NCBI GenBank assembly: GCA_022650895.1 | Contig: JALCQC010000006.1 | Location: 45,991 to 109,990 of the forward strand | Reading direction: 5' to 3' | Length of the DNA: 64,000 nt | From: Bifidobacteriaceae bacterium | GTDB lineage: Bacteria > Actinomycetota > Actinomycetes > Actinomycetales > Bifidobacteriaceae | Part shown: one piece after another, positions 2,020 to 62,625 of the stretch | Layout of the letters: every line of letters begins with the position of its first letter | Numbering within the stretch: the first letter of the stretch is position 1 | Position numbers and translations under genes: made by a program | The notes under the pieces: model-generated | The model's database searches: none | What the model was told of the DNA's origin: nothing | Seen by the model: the letters and a program-made list of their open reading frames with translations, nothing else

Positions 2020-2248
2020 AATCTCAGTGCAAAATCCCAGTGCATAAAGTCTTTCGGGTTGTGGGTGGCATCTAGTGCAGAAAATGCGGAGAATATGAGG
2101 AGAAATACGGCAGACAATCCTGTTGTTTTTCTGTGAATGACCACATTATGGACATTTTTGAGGATATTTCTTGTAGGAGCGCTGACGGTGTTTACTCGTT
2201 TGAAATCAACGGGAACTAGCTTTTGACACACTTGTTAGCAGGTAATCG

Positions 2249-2266
2249 CGTTCGTTCGAACGAACG
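2249..2266. promoter_or_regulatory. 18-bp perfect palindrome CGTTCGTTCGAACGAACG upstream of oppA
   Basis: Read directly; in the 387-bp xerC-oppA intergenic region. Confidence 0.6.
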
Positions 2267-2313
2267 GACGCCCTTGCGCGATTGTCTCCCCTTCGGGGAC
2301 AATAGAGCTAACG

Positions 2314-2361
2314 GCGACGAGGCCTATCTCTTCAGAAGAGAGGTGGGATCATCGCTTTTTT
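2314..2361 (+). terminator. Terminator-like hairpin plus T6 within the oppA leader (possible attenuator)
   Basis: GCGACGAGGCCTATCTCTTCAGAAGAGAGGTGGGATCATCGC followed by TTTTTT; 46 bp before the oppA start. Confidence 0.6.
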
Positions 2362-2406
2362 AGTATTGGCTATTGTGCCTGTACGAAAACCATTTGAGGA
2401 GTAATT

Positions 2407-4065
2407 ATGCAGAAGAGTTCAAAGCTTACGGTTGTAGTGGCCGCGCTTTCTGCTGCTGTCATGTCTCTGAGTGCCTGCGGTGGATCAAGTGACACCGCTT
2501 CAACTGACACCAGCACAAGCGGCAACACTGACCAAGTCATGAGTGTGTACGGGTGCGAGCCAGCCAATCCACTTATCCCGACCAACACCAATGAGGTCTG
2601 TGGCGGTAACCCCATCGATCTGCTGTTCGCCAAGCTCGTTGCCTATGATGACAAGGGCAAGACTGAGAACGAAGTCGCCAAGGAAATCAAGGCCTCCGAC
2701 GAAAACAAGAAGTTCACCATCACACTGAACGATGGTTGGAAGTTCACCGATGGAACCGCCGTCACAGCCGAGTCCTTCACCAAGGCGTGGAGCTATGGTG
2801 CAAACGTCTCCAACGCTCAGCTGTCCTCCAGCTTCTTCCAGAACATCGTTGGTTTCAGCGATCTGCAGAAGAAGGGCGTCGACAAGAACGCACAACTCTC
2901 CGGCCTCAAGGTCGTTGATGACAAGACTTTCACTGTGGATCTGACCTCTCCAAGCTCGGTGTTCCCCACCTCTCTTGGATACAGTGCTTTCGCTCCGCTG
3001 CCTGATTCCTTCTTCAAGGATCCCAAGGCCTTCGGTGAGAAGCCGGTTGGCAACGGTCCGTACAAGTTCGAGTCCTGGACCCACAACGACTCCATTAAGC
3101 TCGTGAAGAACGACGACTACAAGGGCGTTGCTCCTGCTCACAATGGTGGCATCACCTTCAAGATGTACACCGACACAGAGCCTGCCTATGCAGACGTCCA
3201 GGCTGGCAACCTCGATGCACTGGAGACGGTTCCGGCATCGGCTTCCCAGACCTTCACCACGGACTCCAGCGTTCAGGCCTACAACAAGGCCGGCTCTGTC
3301 TTCCAGTCCTTCTCCTTCCCTGCCACTCTGAAGCACTTCGAGCTGGGAACCAAGGAAGGCACGCTGCGTCGTCAGGCGGTCTCCATGGCCATCAACCGCA
3401 AGCAGCTCGTTGATAAGGTCCTCGGTGGCATCGGTACTCCTGCAGTCGACTTCATCTCTCCTGTCATTCCAGGATATTCCGATTCCCTCAAGGGCAACGG
3501 CGTTCTGAAGTATAACAAGGACGAGGCCAAGAAGCTGTGGGCCGAGGCTGACGAGATCTCCAAGTGGACCGATTCCGACAAGCTGACCTTCGCCTACAAC
3601 ACCGATGGTGGAGCAAAGCCGGTCTATGACGCAATCGTCAACCAGGTGAAGAACACCCTGGGCATCAACGTTGCGACCAACCCTATTCCTACCTTCTCCG
3701 AGTTCCGTAATTCCATCACCGCTCGCACGATGAAGTCCGCCTTCCGCACCGGTTGGCAGGCAGATTATCCATCGGCCGAGAACTACCTGAGCCCGCTGTA
3801 CTCCAGCGCCGCTGCAGATGGTAAGGGCTCCAACGATGGAGATTACAAGAACTCCGAGTTCGACGCTCTGCTTACCAAGGCAGCAACCGCATCCGACGAG
3901 GATACAGCAAACGAGAGCTATCACGCCGCAGAAGAGCTTCTTCTCCGCGACCTGCCCTCCGTTCCGCTCTATTACTCCAACGCAGCAGGCGTTGCCGCAA
4001 AGGGCGTCAAGGGCTTCAAGATGAACTGGAAGAATCTTCCTGTTTATCAGGAGCTGACTAAGTAA
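2407..4065 (+). CDS. oppA: Oligopeptide/dipeptide ABC transporter substrate-binding lipoprotein
   Basis: Lipobox LSACGGSS; SBP_bac_5-type sequence; followed by OppB/C/DF-like genes. Confidence 0.9.
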   Translation: MQKSSKLTVVVAALSAAVMSLSACGGSSDTASTDTSTSGNTDQVMSVYGCEPANPLIPTNTNEVCGGNPIDLLFAKLVAYDDKGKTENEVAKEIKASDENKKFTITLNDGWKFTDGTAVTAESFTKAWSYGANVSNAQLSSSFFQNIVGFSDLQKKGVDKNAQLSGLKVVDDKTFTVDLTSPSSVFPTSLGYSAFAPLPDSFFKDPKAFGEKPVGNGPYKFESWTHNDSIKLVKNDDYKGVAPAHNGGITFKMYTDTEPAYADVQAGNLDALETVPASASQTFTTDSSVQAYNKAGSVFQSFSFPATLKHFELGTKEGTLRRQAVSMAINRKQLVDKVLGGIGTPAVDFISPVIPGYSDSLKGNGVLKYNKDEAKKLWAEADEISKWTDSDKLTFAYNTDGGAKPVYDAIVNQVKNTLGINVATNPIPTFSEFRNSITARTMKSAFRTGWQADYPSAENYLSPLYSSAAADGKGSNDGDYKNSEFDALLTKAATASDEDTANESYHAAEELLLRDLPSVPLYYSNAAGVAAKGVKGFKMNWKNLPVYQELTK

Positions 4066-30391: not shown

Positions 30392-30413
30392 AAAGGGAAA
30401 GACGAAGAGGAAG

Positions 30414-30760
30414 TGAGACCTCTTATACCCCGGGTTCTGTCGCGCGTGAACGCGGATGACCATCCATCTAGGCCAATCGTTGCCGATTGGCTCAAGCGGC
30501 CTACCCGAAGACGGAACGAGCAGTTCCATTGCCTTCTGCTTGGCCTTGCTCCCGATGAGGCTTGCCGTGCGATTCCTGTCACCAGGAATCCGGTGGTCTC
30601 TTACACCGCCGTTTCACCCTTACCTTGAAAAATCAAGGCGGTCTATTCTCTGTTGCGCTATCTCTCAGGTTTCCCTGGGCGGGCGTTACCCGCCATCGTG
30701 CTCTGTGGAGCCCGGAAGTTCCTCGTCGCCCGAAGGCGCCGCGGTCATCAAGAGGTCTCA
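30414..30760 (-). ncRNA. rnpB: RNase P RNA (M1 RNA, bacterial class A)
   Basis: Minus strand reads GAGGAACTTCCGGGCTCC, CAACAGAGAATAGACCGCC, CGGGTAGGCC, ATGGATGGTCATC, GACAGAACCCGGGGTATAAG; P1 helix GAGACCTCTT (30750-30759) pairs with AAGAGGTCTC (30415-30424). Confidence 0.93.
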
Positions 30761-56241: not shown

Positions 56242-56601
56242 GAAGATTCGAATATAACTGATTATGGAAGCGACAACAGCTACATCGAGCTTGCGGTGAA
56301 CGTCTTCTCTCTCCTTGCGGACCCCACGCGCATTCGTATAGTGCTTGCTCTGAAGGAGGGCGAGATGTCTGTTGGCCAACTCGCCGAACACATCGGCAAG
56401 AGCCAGACCGCCGTCTCCCAGCACCTTGCCAAGATGAGGTGGGGACGACTGGTCGAGACGAGACAGGAGGGGACGCGCGTGTATTACAAACTCAGCGATG
56501 AGCACGCCATCAACCTTGTGGACCAGGCCATCTTCCAAGCGGAACACGTCGTCGACGGCATACCGGCACACCACATGACGGCAAAAGGGGGAAAACGATG
56601 A
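56230..56601 (+). CDS. ArsR/SmtB-family metal-responsive regulator
   Basis: LADPTRIRIVLALKEGEMSVGQLAEHIGKSQTAVSQHLAKMRWGRLVETRQEGTRVYYKLSDEHAINLV winged HTH. Confidence 0.9.
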   Translation: MRMYEDSNITDYGSDNSYIELAVNVFSLLADPTRIRIVLALKEGEMSVGQLAEHIGKSQTAVSQHLAKMRWGRLVETRQEGTRVYYKLSDEHAINLVDQAIFQAEHVVDGIPAHHMTAKGGKR

Positions 56602-58526
56602 CGATCGCTCTTCAGGAGAAACAAGCGAAGACAGAGTCAGAGAGACACGAGGAAACGGCTGTCTCGCTCTTCGCACGCATCGAGCGTGGCGATCTTCTGA
56701 GGGTCTCCGCTGTCGTCGTACTTGCCGTGGTTGCCGGTATCGTGCAGTACGTGTTGCCACCTGCCCGCTGGAGCACAGTGCTTCTGATGGTCGTCACCGC
56801 AGTCGGTCTCGTTGGAGGCTGCTGGTCGATAGCGCGTGAATCCATAGAAGACATCCGTCAACATCGCATGAGCATGGATCTTTCGATGCTCATCGCCATT
56901 GTGGCAGCGGCAGCCATTGGACAGTGGACCACATCACTGGTGATCGTCGTGTTCGTCCTTGTCGCCGAGATACTTGAGGATCTCTGCATGGACAGGGGGA
57001 GAAGCGCTCTGACGGATCTCATGGCCTTTCTTCCTGCCACGGTGCGGATACGTACAGGTTCTCAAGTGCACGACATCAAGCTTTCCGACGTGGAAGCGGG
57101 CATGATACTCGTCATCTCTCCCGGAGGCCGCATACCAGTTGACGGCGTCGTTGTCTCCGGTGAGTCAAGCGTCGACCAATCCCGTGTCACAGGAGAATCG
57201 GTACCCGTATCCGTGGCGTCGGGCGACAGTGTGTTTTCGGGTTCCATCAATCAGGACGGTGCCATGGAGGTGAAGGCCACGAAGGTGGGCGACGACTCCT
57301 CGTACGGCCGTATCGTCTCAGCGCTGCGTGATGCTCAGAATTCACAGGCTCCCGTCCAGCGTCTCGCCGACAGATTGGCAATGGCGCTCGTATCGATTGC
57401 CATAGTGGGAGCCATCATCACGTGGCTGGTATCGCGTGATCTCACCAATGCGATCTCCGTCATCATCGTGGCAGGTGCGTGCGGAGTGGCGGCAGGAACT
57501 CCACTCGCCCTGCTCGCCTCGATGGCGCGTGCCGCCCGTTCGGGAGCCTTTGTCAAGGATGGATTGCACCTGGAAGTGCTTTCGGAGGTCGACACGGTCG
57601 TTTTCGACAAGACGGGCACCCTCACCACCGGCGTCCTGTCGGTGCGGCGCTGCTCTCCGGAAGGTGGCGTCACGGAGGAGGAACTACTTGCGCTCGCTGC
57701 GAGTGCCGAATCCTACTCAGAGCATCTCATCGGCGAGGCGGTGGTGGCTGAGGCACGCCGGCGCGGTATTGCGACTCAGATGCCTGAGCGTTTCGAGAAC
57801 GCCGCAGGCAGAGGAGTGGCGGCAGCGGTCGATGGACATGAGATACGTGTTGGTAGGAGTGATTATGTAGCAGGTGTATGGTCTGAGGTTTCTTCCCGGC
57901 ACAATAATGACATCCATGTTTCCTCCGACGGCCGCTATCTGGGATCGATTTCCTTTGAGGACACAGTGCGGCAGAATTCAAGTTCCAGCCTCACAGCGCT
58001 CAGACGCCTGGGCCTGCGTGTCATCATGCTGACCGGTGACCATCGCGATATCGCTGTGCGCATCGGCAAGCAGTTGGGAATCGACGATGTCCGTGCGGAT
58101 CTCCTTCCCGACGACAAGCTGGCTGTTATCGCGCATGAGCGTGAGGCGGGACACCGTGTGGTGATGATCGGAGACGGAGTGAACGACGCTCCCTCGCTCG
58201 CCGCAGCGGATGTTGGCATCGCTATGGGATCGGGAACCGATATCGCCACTGACAGCGCAAATATCGTTCTCATCAGTTCTGATCTCAACGACTTGGTTTC
58301 CCTCATCGGAACCGCACGCAGGGCTCGGAACATCATCATGTTCAACTTCTTTGGCACTATCGTCGTCGATGTCATTGGGATGGCCTTGGCCTCCATCGGA
58401 GTTTTGACACCCATGCTCTCCGCCATCGTTCATGTCGGAAGTGAATCCGCTTTCATTCTCAATTCAGCGCGTCTCATTCCCACAAGACACGTGCTCGGAA
58501 GTGAGAAGGGGAAGCGACCGGCGTAA
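56598..58526 (+). CDS. Heavy-metal-type P-type ATPase lacking canonical CPx and HP motifs
   Basis: VTGESVPV, FDKTGTLTTG, GDGVNDAPSLAAADVGIAMGSGTDIATDSANIVL; overlaps the ArsR gene by 4 nt. Confidence 0.88.
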   Translation: MTIALQEKQAKTESERHEETAVSLFARIERGDLLRVSAVVVLAVVAGIVQYVLPPARWSTVLLMVVTAVGLVGGCWSIARESIEDIRQHRMSMDLSMLIAIVAAAAIGQWTTSLVIVVFVLVAEILEDLCMDRGRSALTDLMAFLPATVRIRTGSQVHDIKLSDVEAGMILVISPGGRIPVDGVVVSGESSVDQSRVTGESVPVSVASGDSVFSGSINQDGAMEVKATKVGDDSSYGRIVSALRDAQNSQAPVQRLADRLAMALVSIAIVGAIITWLVSRDLTNAISVIIVAGACGVAAGTPLALLASMARAARSGAFVKDGLHLEVLSEVDTVVFDKTGTLTTGVLSVRRCSPEGGVTEEELLALAASAESYSEHLIGEAVVAEARRRGIATQMPERFENAAGRGVAAAVDGHEIRVGRSDYVAGVWSEVSSRHNNDIHVSSDGRYLGSISFEDTVRQNSSSSLTALRRLGLRVIMLTGDHRDIAVRIGKQLGIDDVRADLLPDDKLAVIAHEREAGHRVVMIGDGVNDAPSLAAADVGIAMGSGTDIATDSANIVLISSDLNDLVSLIGTARRARNIIMFNFFGTIVVDVIGMALASIGVLTPMLSAIVHVGSESAFILNSARLIPTRHVLGSEKGKRPA

Positions 58527-58574: not shown

Positions 58575-58594
58575 GAACACGATAAATGAATAGC

Positions 58595-58702
58595 ATCTTC
58601 AGGGCGGGGTGAAATTCCCCACCGGTGGTAAAGCCCACGAGCCGCAAGGCATGATTCGGTGAAACTCCGAGGCCGACAGTACAGTCTGGATGAAAGAAGA
58701 CG
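58595..58702 (+). promoter_or_regulatory. FMN riboswitch (RFN element)
   Basis: ATCTTCAGGGCGGGGTGAAATTCCCCACCGGTGGTAAAGCCCACGAGCC...GATTCGGTGAAACTCCGAGGCCGACAGT...AGTCTGGATGAAAGAAGA. Confidence 0.96.
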
Positions 58703-58763
58703 CGGGAATCAGTTCACCTACTCTCCGTATGACGGAGTCCGTCAGTGGGCTGATTGTTGCAGG

Positions 58764-58797
58764 CTCTGAAACTCACAAAGGTTTCAGAGTTTTTTTA
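58764..58797 (+). terminator. Rho-independent terminator of the FMN riboswitch expression platform
   Basis: CTCTGAAAC tcacaaag GTTTCAGAG followed by a T-run. Confidence 0.9.
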
Positions 58798-58857: not shown

Positions 58858-59982
58858 GTGACGGCAGATCGATTCAATGAGAGGTTCATGCGCGAGGCAA
58901 TTGCGCTCGCTCGTCGGGGCTACGGCTTCGTAGACCCGAATCCATTGGTTGGTGCGGTCATCGTTCAGGATGGTCAGATCGTCGCACGTGGATTTCATGA
59001 AGAGTACGGACATGAACACGCGGAACGCAATGCCCTGAATGAGGCGGCCGCGAAAGGCGTGAACCTTCGGGGTGCCAGCATGTATGTCACCTTGGAACCC
59101 TGCTCGCACTACGGACATCAGCCGCCGTGCGCCACGGCGATCGCGGAATCGGGGATAACGGAGGTATTCGTCGGCTCGGATGATCCGAATCCGAGGGTGA
59201 ACGGCGCTGGAATCGCGATGCTGCGTGCTGCCGGACTCCGCGTGGTGACCCACGTCCTCATGCGGGACTGCGACGCGCTGAATGACTCGTTTTTCCATTT
59301 CATACGGACTACGGGGCCGTGGGTCGTTCTCAAATATGCCATGAGCCTCGATGGCAGAATCGCGCTTCATGACGGAACACCGTGGGCCGTTTCGGGACCC
59401 GAGTCGTTGCAGCGTGTGCATGAGGAACGGTCTCGGTACGCGGCAATCGTGACAGGAGTGGGCACAGTCCTCGCCGATGACCCACAGCTGACGGCACGCC
59501 CCTCCAGTCCGGCCAATCCCCGTCTCGGTGTGCATTCGCCGTGGAGAATCGTGATGGATTCACAGCTGCGCACTCCTGTGAAGTCCCGCGTGGTGCAAGA
59601 AAGCAGAGCCGATCACCTCACGGTCCTTGCCACCACGGTGACCGATGCACAAGCTCATCGCGTCTACGAGGACCAGGGGTGCACCGTGGTGAGCCTTCCC
59701 GGCGACGATGCTGGGGAGGTGAGCGTTACGGCGCTGATGGACTATCTCGGCCATCGGCGCGTTGACAGCGCGCTCCTCGAGTGTGGGGGAAGGCTCTCCG
59801 CCGCATTTCTTCGGGCGGGCAAGGTCAACAAGGTCGAGGCATTCATCGCTCCGAAAATCGTGGGGAATGCCCTGTCTCCGAGTCCGGTTGCTGGGCACGC
59901 GGTCCTCGATCCTTTGCCTCACCTGCATGACGTACAGGTGTCGAGATGTGGCCACGACGTTGTTATTGAAGGAAAGGTGTGA
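58858..59982 (+). CDS. ribD: Bifunctional diaminohydroxyphosphoribosylaminopyrimidine deaminase/reductase (GTG start)
   Basis: HAERNALNEAAAKG, TLEPCSHYGHQPPC zinc deaminase; WVVLKYAMSLDGRIAL reductase. Confidence 0.93.
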   Translation: MTADRFNERFMREAIALARRGYGFVDPNPLVGAVIVQDGQIVARGFHEEYGHEHAERNALNEAAAKGVNLRGASMYVTLEPCSHYGHQPPCATAIAESGITEVFVGSDDPNPRVNGAGIAMLRAAGLRVVTHVLMRDCDALNDSFFHFIRTTGPWVVLKYAMSLDGRIALHDGTPWAVSGPESLQRVHEERSRYAAIVTGVGTVLADDPQLTARPSSPANPRLGVHSPWRIVMDSQLRTPVKSRVVQESRADHLTVLATTVTDAQAHRVYEDQGCTVVSLPGDDAGEVSVTALMDYLGHRRVDSALLECGGRLSAAFLRAGKVNKVEAFIAPKIVGNALSPSPVAGHAVLDPLPHLHDVQVSRCGHDVVIEGKV

Positions 59983-59983
59983 C

Positions 59984-61855
59984 ATGTTCACAGGAATCAT
60001 CGAATCCATCGGGAAGGTATACACCATCGCCGAGGAGGGAAAGTCAGCGGGCGCCGGGAAGGTCCTGCGGCTTCAGGACGCGAAGATTGCTCAGGGCCTC
60101 GCGCCCGGCGACAGCCTCAGCGTCAATGGAGTGTGCCTCACGGTGGTGGCTACCACGGAGGAGGGGATCATCGACCTCGAGGTGATGCCGCAGACGCTGT
60201 CATTCACGGATCTGGGATCACTGCAGACGGGAGATCGCGTCAATCTGGAACGCTCCTTGGGTGCCAGCGGTACCGCGGGATTTGGCGGACACATCGTGCT
60301 GGGGCATGTGGATGGCGTCGGCACGGTCGTTGCGCGCGTTCAGGAGGGAATCTCCACACGCTACACGATTCAACCCGATCCTGCTCTTGGACGCTATATC
60401 GCAGCGCAGGGTTCCATCGCCATCGACGGCATCAGTCTGACTGTTGCACGGCGTGACGCCACGACCTTCGACGTCGCCATCATTCCCCACACCAAGGAAG
60501 TGACTGTGATCGGAGACCGCAAAATCGGCGATCACGTCAACATCGAAGTCGATGTGGCGGCGCGATACAGGGAACAGTACGCTCAGGGAGACCTCACCGC
60601 CGACGATCTCATCGCAATCTGGGGGGATTCAGGCTCCCAGACCGATTCCGTCGATACGGCCATTGAAGCGATTCGCAGAGGTGAACTCGTCGTGGTGATG
60701 GATGACGAGTCACGCGAAAACGAGGGTGATCTCATCTGCGCTGCCCAAGAGATGGATCCTCAGAATCTCAACGTCATGGCTTCCAAGGCCAAGGGGTTGA
60801 TCTGCATGCCGATGAGCGCCCGCCGTGCGCGCCACCTCCATTTGGAACCTATGGTCGCCGACAACACGGATAACCACCACACGGCCTTCACGGTCTCCGT
60901 CGACCATGTTTCGACGACGACGGGCATCAGCGCCTTCGACCGAGCGACCACGGCCCGTGCCTGCGCGTCCGACGAAGCACAACCGGAAGATTTTCGCCGT
61001 CCGGGACACATGTTCCCCCTGGTTGCCAAAGACGGAGGGGTCTTGGAGCGCAACGGTCATACGGAGGCGACCGTCGATCTGGTCAAGCTTGCCGGCGCAG
61101 GCGATGTGGGGCTGTGCTGCGAGATCATGGCGGAAGACGGTTCCATGATGCGCCGCCAGCAGCTGATGGTTTTCGCCCGTCTCAACGGCTGGCCGATCAT
61201 CACCATCGCACAGCTGCAGCAGTACCGTCGCGCACACCTGAGCGTCAGGAAAATTGCGGGAGCGCATTTGCCCACCAGCTTCGGCGACTTCGACATTCAG
61301 GGCTACCTCTGCGACGAGACGGGGGAGGAAGCCGTTGCCCTTGTCAAGGGAGCCGTCGCGCAAGACGCAGATAGCGACGTCCAGGGTATGCAGCCGGTGC
61401 TCGTCCGCGTGCATTCGGAATGTCTCACCGGTGATGCCTTCGGATCTCTGCGCTGCGACTGCGGCGATCAGCTCCGTGCCGCCATGAGGAGAATCGAGGC
61501 GGCAGGCAGGGGCGTCATCATCTACCTCGAGCAGGAAGGACGGGGGATCGGCCTGTTGAACAAGATCCGTGCGTATGCGGAGCAGGACGAGGGAGCGGAC
61601 ACCGTCGATGCCAACACGAGGCTCGGTTTGCCGGTGGACGCACGCCACTACGGTTTTGCCGCCGCCATTCTGAGAGCGCTGGGAATTGGAAGCGTCAACC
61701 TCCTTACCAACAACCCCGACAAGATGGAGCAACTTGAGTCCATGGGAATTTCGGTGGCGCAAAGAACGAGCGTGGAGATGCCGGCGAACCCCGTCGACCA
61801 CGACTATCTTGTGACAAAGCGTGACCGCATGGGGCACTTGCTCTCTCTTCAATGA
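59984..61855 (+). CDS. Trifunctional riboflavin synthase alpha / DHBP synthase / GTP cyclohydrolase II fusion (RibE-RibB-RibA)
   Basis: [12 protein letters not shown] and [13 protein letters not shown] (RibE), then [16 protein letters not shown] (RibB), then [21 protein letters not shown] and [15 protein letters not shown] (RibA) in one uninterrupted frame. Confidence 0.92.
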
Positions 61856-62547: not shown

Positions 62548-62588
62548 TGAAGGGGTCCCGAAGTGTTTTTCACTCCGGGACCCCTTCA
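62548..62588. terminator. Strong hairpin between convergent ribH and DUF349 genes
   Basis: TGAAGGGGTCCCG...CGGGACCCCTTCA. Confidence 0.75.
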
Positions 62589-62625
62589 CGTCAGCCTTGC
62601 ATATGTGCAGACTGTTACTTTCGGC

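Follow-up and report, generated by a model that had tools for sequence, protein, structure and literature searches.

The locus described here raises the question of whether RibE, RibB and RibA are truly joined in a single protein in a Bifidobacteriaceae genome, and what such a chain might mean for riboflavin synthesis. The window, the whole stretch of 64,000 nt that was analysed, contains on its plus strand a frame (positions 59984–61855) that translates into 623 residues with zero internal stops, corresponding to a mass of 66.7 kDa. The domain order in this chain is RibE, RibB and RibA, i.e., riboflavin synthase, DHBP synthase and GTP cyclohydrolase II. In nearly all bacteria these vitamin B2 enzymes are spread over at least two proteins. 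Pfam profiles detected two Lum_binding repeats (1.9e-44), DHBP_synthase (PF00926, residues 225–414, E 2.3e-83) and GTP_cyclohydro2 (PF00925, residues 425–595, E 3.3e-67). NCBIfam agreed with Pfam on the three enzymes, each of which is full-length, and the extents given by the two libraries are 1–198 for RibE, about 221–415 for RibB and about 421–622 for RibA. The RibE part scored above the cut-offs of TIGR00187 and NF006767, and the RibA part above that of TIGR00505. The equivalog model for RibBA (NF006803) gave 533 bits, below its cut-off of 569, while both single-domain models were passed; this looks like divergence.

We compared the fused chain with unfused proteins, 35 of RibE and 35 of RibBA. 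The positions of the CLT, SLT and GHxDG motifs in the RibE part are identical to those invariant in the separate RibE proteins, and a few conserved positions outside the motifs are changed in one or more of the fused proteins. The RibB part keeps the motif positions of DDExRENEGD, TGISAxxR, RPGH and GHTEATVDL, and the RibA part keeps Cys-x10-Cys-x-Cys (C480, C491, C493), QEGRGIG and TNNPxK. Exceptions to the invariant positions are scattered and lie outside the recognised catalytic and metal motifs. Since these recognised positions are kept, loss of any of the three activities appears unlikely. The initial annotation had described one uninterrupted RibE-RibB-RibA frame with a complete DHBP synthase followed by a GTP cyclohydrolase II with a Cys metal motif, and this description is confirmed by the translation, the domain profiles and the three retained cysteines.

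The features of the operon are listed in Table 1. The order is FMN riboswitch, ribD, ribEBA and ribH, so that the fused gene indeed stands beside ribD and ribH in a riboflavin operon, as had been proposed; this follows from the order of the ORFs and the RF00050 riboswitch. One base separates the stop of ribD from the ATG of ribEBA, which is preceded by GGAAAGG. The hairpin behind the aptamer is the probable expression platform of the riboswitch, an assignment that relies on its position and on known FMN riboswitches, as terminator-like sites in the region are not more frequent than in shuffled sequences. Directly upstream of the riboswitch, an ORF of 642 aa (56598–58526, plus strand) with the motif DKTGTLT encodes, by its sequence, a P-type ATPase of the heavy-metal type. 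Between ribH and a convergent gene of 449 aa on the minus strand, a long GC-rich inverted repeat (aaggggtcccgaagtg...cactccgggacccctt, positions 62548–62595) is probably a terminator common to both genes; the terminator scan did not report it. Elsewhere in the window, an ordinary bacterial class A RNase P RNA is encoded on the minus strand (30410–30760, 316.9 bits).

Table 1. Features of the riboflavin operon, in positions of the window.
Feature	Position	Strand	Basis
FMN riboswitch aptamer (RFN element), operon leader	58591..58705	+	Rfam RF00050, 114.3 bits, E 6.7e-26
Terminator hairpin, 13-pair stem and T run, just behind the aptamer	58761..58792	+	Terminator scan
ribD, 374 aa, GTG start	58858..59982	+	ORF; related loci have ribD-like frames ahead of ribE
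RibE (riboflavin synthase alpha) part, residues 1–190	59984..60553	+	Lum_binding x2, TIGR00187, NF006767; MFTG start, GGAAAGG upstream
RibE C-terminal helix, residues 191–200	60554..60583	+	AlphaFold2 helix; position of the trimerisation coiled coil (role: PMC13376624)
Helix, residues 206–213 (ADDLIAIW)	60599..60622	+	Tail comparison, AlphaFold2; positional counterpart of the free ITxxFLxxxGF tail in unfused RibE
Linker, residues 214–222, start of the TDSV junction motif	60623..60649	+	Predicted unstructured by AlphaFold2; three-way alignment
RibB (DHBP synthase) part, residues 223–415	60650..61228	+	PF00926; invariant residues kept
RibA (GTP cyclohydrolase II) part, residues 421–623	61244..61852	+	PF00925, TIGR00505; metal site Cys480/491/493
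ribH (lumazine synthase), 163 aa	61920..62411	+	PDB matches including cage formers; single copy

A fused frame can result from an error in sequencing or assembly, and the genome of the window is a draft (88% complete, 32 contigs). However, a stop-free fusion is present in all three genomes of the genus, the window genome and two others (G164 and G163). The fused proteins of G164 and G163 share 69% and 67% identity with the window protein over essentially the whole length, all three begin with MFTG, and the motif TDSVxxA[IV]xAI at the junction is common to them in a three-way alignment. The G164 locus (JALCQD010000002.1) is part of the MAG UW_DM_BIF1_1, a member of the Bifidobacteriaceae from a dairy-manure hydrolysate bioreactor that consists of six contigs and is reported to be 100% complete (PMC9387265). 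The independent copies in G164 and G163, 67–70% identical to the window protein and alike at the junction, exclude a frameshift or a mis-assembled loss of the stop for practical purposes, and the probability of an artefact is negligible. The concern about an indel between 60590 and 60680 is answered, to the same practical extent, by the same single frame in two further genomes. In G163 (L003, 1501–3432, minus strand) the RibE part is longer by about 29 residues, which lie between residue 17 and the second strand.

Third codon positions differ by about 55% among the fused genes of the genus, compared to an amino-acid identity of 67–78%, which indicates purifying selection on the fused chain. 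A second RibB or RibH gave no match in the three genomes, two of which are incomplete drafts (88% and 76%), and the fused protein is the sole source of RibB found in them.

To see how far the fusion extends, we searched samples of other genomes. Only 25 of 189 Bifidobacteriaceae genomes matched the fused protein at all, and those outside the genus that have both parts encode them in separate frames. In the GTDB contig collection one of 80 loci is fused (L031), which is the G164 locus. No fusion outside the genus was found among the matches listed for samples of the class (395 genomes) and the order (297 genomes, cut-off 1e-122), and none among those listed for Bacillota (349 genomes sampled) and Pseudomonadota (399 genomes sampled). 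A fused protein would rank first in the matches of all four scans; at the cut-off used for the order it would appear, with split proteins hidden. A second scan of Bacillota covered largely the same genomes and adds nothing. Several candidates were rejected: apparent fusions in G161, G085, G050 and G171, suggested by equally long open frames, are separate frames on inspection, every single-piece match from Actinomycetes, Bacillota and Pseudomonadota that covers both parts is interrupted by one stop or more, and an unannotated match on a Niveispirillum plasmid consists of two ORFs (1501–2091 and 2095–3237). The term "ribEBA" in publications is a fragment of an operon name and does not denote a fusion protein. 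In the open-access literature, including the survey PMC4921024 outside its tables, we came across no account of a protein that joins RibE to RibBA. Far from being widespread and well described among actinobacteria, the 623-aa architecture was thus seen in this genus only, within the samples. These data demonstrate that the RibE-RibB-RibA fusion is real and conserved, and that it is rare and restricted to the genus in the samples scanned.

In a tree of RibBA the three fused proteins cluster in a single clade (support 100/100), which is most simply explained by one fusion that the genus inherited from its ancestor. This clade adjoins ten unfused proteins of Bifidobacteriaceae with support that is not strong (86/73). 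Fused and unfused Bifidobacteriaceae proteins stand apart from typical actinobacterial RibBA, in a broader group together with sequences from Bacillota and Pasteurellaceae. The fusion would have arisen by loss of the stop and the gap between neighbouring ribE and ribBA genes, and related loci bear out the earlier claim that it sits where relatives have these genes separate and adjacent. The unfused RibBA of another member of the family (L022, from G171) groups with Lachnospiraceae; it probably goes back to a separate transfer, with rib genes acquired separately within the family.

In at least about 50 genomes of Bacillota, 6 of Actinomycetes and roughly 15 of Pseudomonadota, ribE and ribBA share a reading frame and are separated by one to three stops. 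With such tandems in many lineages the fusion is mutationally close, yet in our samples it was seen fixed in this genus only. It is possible, though doubtful, that the fusion is functionally neutral, i.e., that the domains act as separate proteins, that joint translation is the only effect, and that drift fixed the fused form once in the ancestor. Most relatives have the two genes side by side, often in one frame, so few mutations would be needed. However, none of the roughly 70 in-frame tandems among the matches listed is fused, which hints that fusion is normally disfavoured, and the fusion has been retained while the proteins diverged to 67–78% identity.

The junction was examined in an AlphaFold2 model of the fused chain (mean pLDDT 90), which predicts helices at residues 191–200 and 206–213, no structure for 214–222 and the first helix of RibB from residue 223. 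The initial annotation had given a linker of about 25 residues. A linker does exist, but comparison of the tails together with the model suggests that most of this segment is the C-terminal tail of RibE itself, and that the true linker has about 9 residues (214–222). Linker identity among the fused proteins is 25–46%. The linker thus appears to evolve fast, under no tight constraint on its sequence, and its poor conservation would also fit a neutral fusion.

Unfused RibE proteins end in tails such as ITENFLIEHGF in the family and ITYDFLAENGF or LTLEFLRENGF in Clostridia. At this position the fused proteins have a changed sequence, which in one of them reads FTAQQLSDLFND, followed by TDSVxxA[IV]xAI as the opening of RibB. 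Judging from these alignments, the C-terminal tail of RibE became an internal segment. In Aquifex and Bacillus this tail is a cage-localisation signal that brings RibE trimers into the RibH shell, and in Aquifex a trimerising coiled coil precedes the signal (PMC13376624). The hydrophobic moment of the internal helix is not above that of shuffled sequences, and the same holds for unfused tails.

It could be argued that the cell still produces two separate proteins, through internal initiation or cleavage of the linker. The linker is predicted to be unstructured, and in-frame GTG codons occur near AGGA-like bases, e.g., GTG 229 in G164 and GTG 255 in G163. The window gene, however, has no ATG, GTG or TTG between residues 192 and 236, and its nearest start codons (191 and 237–239) fall within the C-terminal helix of RibE or the core of RibB. 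The candidate codons of G164 and G163 are absent from the window gene, and the Shine-Dalgarno-like bases are merely 2 nt away from them. As the in-frame start codons near the junction are weak candidates whose positions differ between the genomes, we see no plausible internal start ahead of RibB, and production of two proteins seems very unlikely.

RibH, encoded next to the fused chain, has cage formers among its best PDB matches (4v7g, 1rvv, 9ryi), to which it aligns without a net gap. It shows full-length homology to 60-mer forms, and its GTKxGNKG loop is without insertion. In Aquifex RibH, positions R29, E32, L121, I125 and W137 have roles in binding or locking the signal or in closure of the cage (PMC13376624). 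In the genus, the corresponding residues of RibH are Arg29, an acidic one at 32 (Asp or Glu), Val121, Ile125 and a small one at 137 (Ala or Thr), and none of 97 other RibH sequences compared combines Arg29 with an acidic residue at 32. RibH of the unfused family members has Lys29 (20 of 21), mostly Ser32, Ile121 (20 of 21) and Phe or Tyr at 137. These differences are consistent with a change of RibH together with the internalised tail of RibE and, occurring in the same clade as the fusion, they speak against a neutral fusion; as they stem from one clade, they may also be ordinary lineage drift. A more far-reaching view, which we consider rather unlikely, is that the former signal still docks on RibH from its internal position, that RibH co-evolved with it (Arg29 with Asp/Glu32, Val121, a small residue at 137), and that RibE, rather than being packed in the cage, belongs to a RibEBA-RibH metabolon that passes DHBP and ribitylamino-uracil directly to lumazine synthase.

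RibE forms trimers and RibB and RibA form dimers, as is established for these families. RibH takes two substrates, DHBP, which RibB makes, and ribitylamino-uracil, which RibE returns, so the fusion ties both sources to one chain. On balance we lean, with some reserve, towards the view that the gene encodes a genus-specific trifunctional RibE-RibB-RibA enzyme, which would fix the stoichiometry and bring the sources of both RibH substrates together. The chains would probably assemble as a closed (RibE3)2(RibBA2)3 hexamer of about 400 kDa, in which two RibE trimers are bridged by three RibBA dimers, or as a larger mesh. Assuming a cage lumen of 40–45 Å, three fused chains would fill 63–90% of its volume, compared to 21–30% for a RibE trimer. 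Due to this bulk, the usual encapsulation in the RibH cage is unlikely for the fused chain, and contact with RibH, if any, would probably be made from outside or with a partial shell. A fixed 1:1:1 ratio would raise the amount of RibBA, which is usually scarce; in B. subtilis RibAB is reported to be limiting (PMC8414670). We also infer that the fused chain may channel substrates. For B. subtilis a transient contact between RibAB and RibH was proposed with weak support, encapsulation was observed for only about 14% of RibE, and RibH had an effect on only about 3% of RibAB (PMC8414670); these low figures imply that channelling may matter little.

More than the fusion per se, the internalised cage signal and the matching changes in RibH make this locus of interest. 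In many bacteria the free tail at the end of RibE brings the enzyme into the RibH cage. A genus with an internal tail that carries a 400-residue enzyme offers a natural experiment on the importance of encapsulation for riboflavin synthesis, and also on whether encapsulation can be replaced by uniting the sources of both RibH substrates. For riboflavin production, the fused gene represents a ready-made trifunctional part.

Among known systems, RibBA (NF006803; PDB 4i14) matches the C-terminal 400 residues of the fused chain end to end (E 5.9e-112 for 4i14), but the fused chain has a complete riboflavin synthase on its N-terminus. Riboflavin synthase alpha (TIGR00187, NF006767; PDB 4e0f, 1kzl, 9ryj) shares the two lumazine-binding repeats and the motif residues with the RibE part, in which the free C-terminus is gone and the segment corresponding to the Aquifex/Bacillus signal tail is internal and changed in sequence. 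The Gram-positive ribD-ribE-ribBA-ribH operon, as in the Bacillus type and the Bifidobacteriaceae loci examined, has the same order and the FMN riboswitch, whereas ribE and ribBA are a single gene in the window. Compared to the RibE-in-RibH cage of Aquifex and Bacillus ("heavy riboflavin synthase", PMC13376624), the window RibH aligns to cage formers without a net gap, but the cargo to be packed would be about threefold larger with its signal internal, and RibH combines Arg29 with Asp/Glu32 and lacks the usual aromatic residue at 137, where it has Ala/Thr. The part of the survey of B-vitamin pathway gene fusions available to us flags triple fusions in riboflavin synthesis, and the fusions catalogued there likewise join neighbouring pathway genes (PMC4921024). 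The fusion is of a familiar type, and the joining of these three enzymes appears to be the new part.
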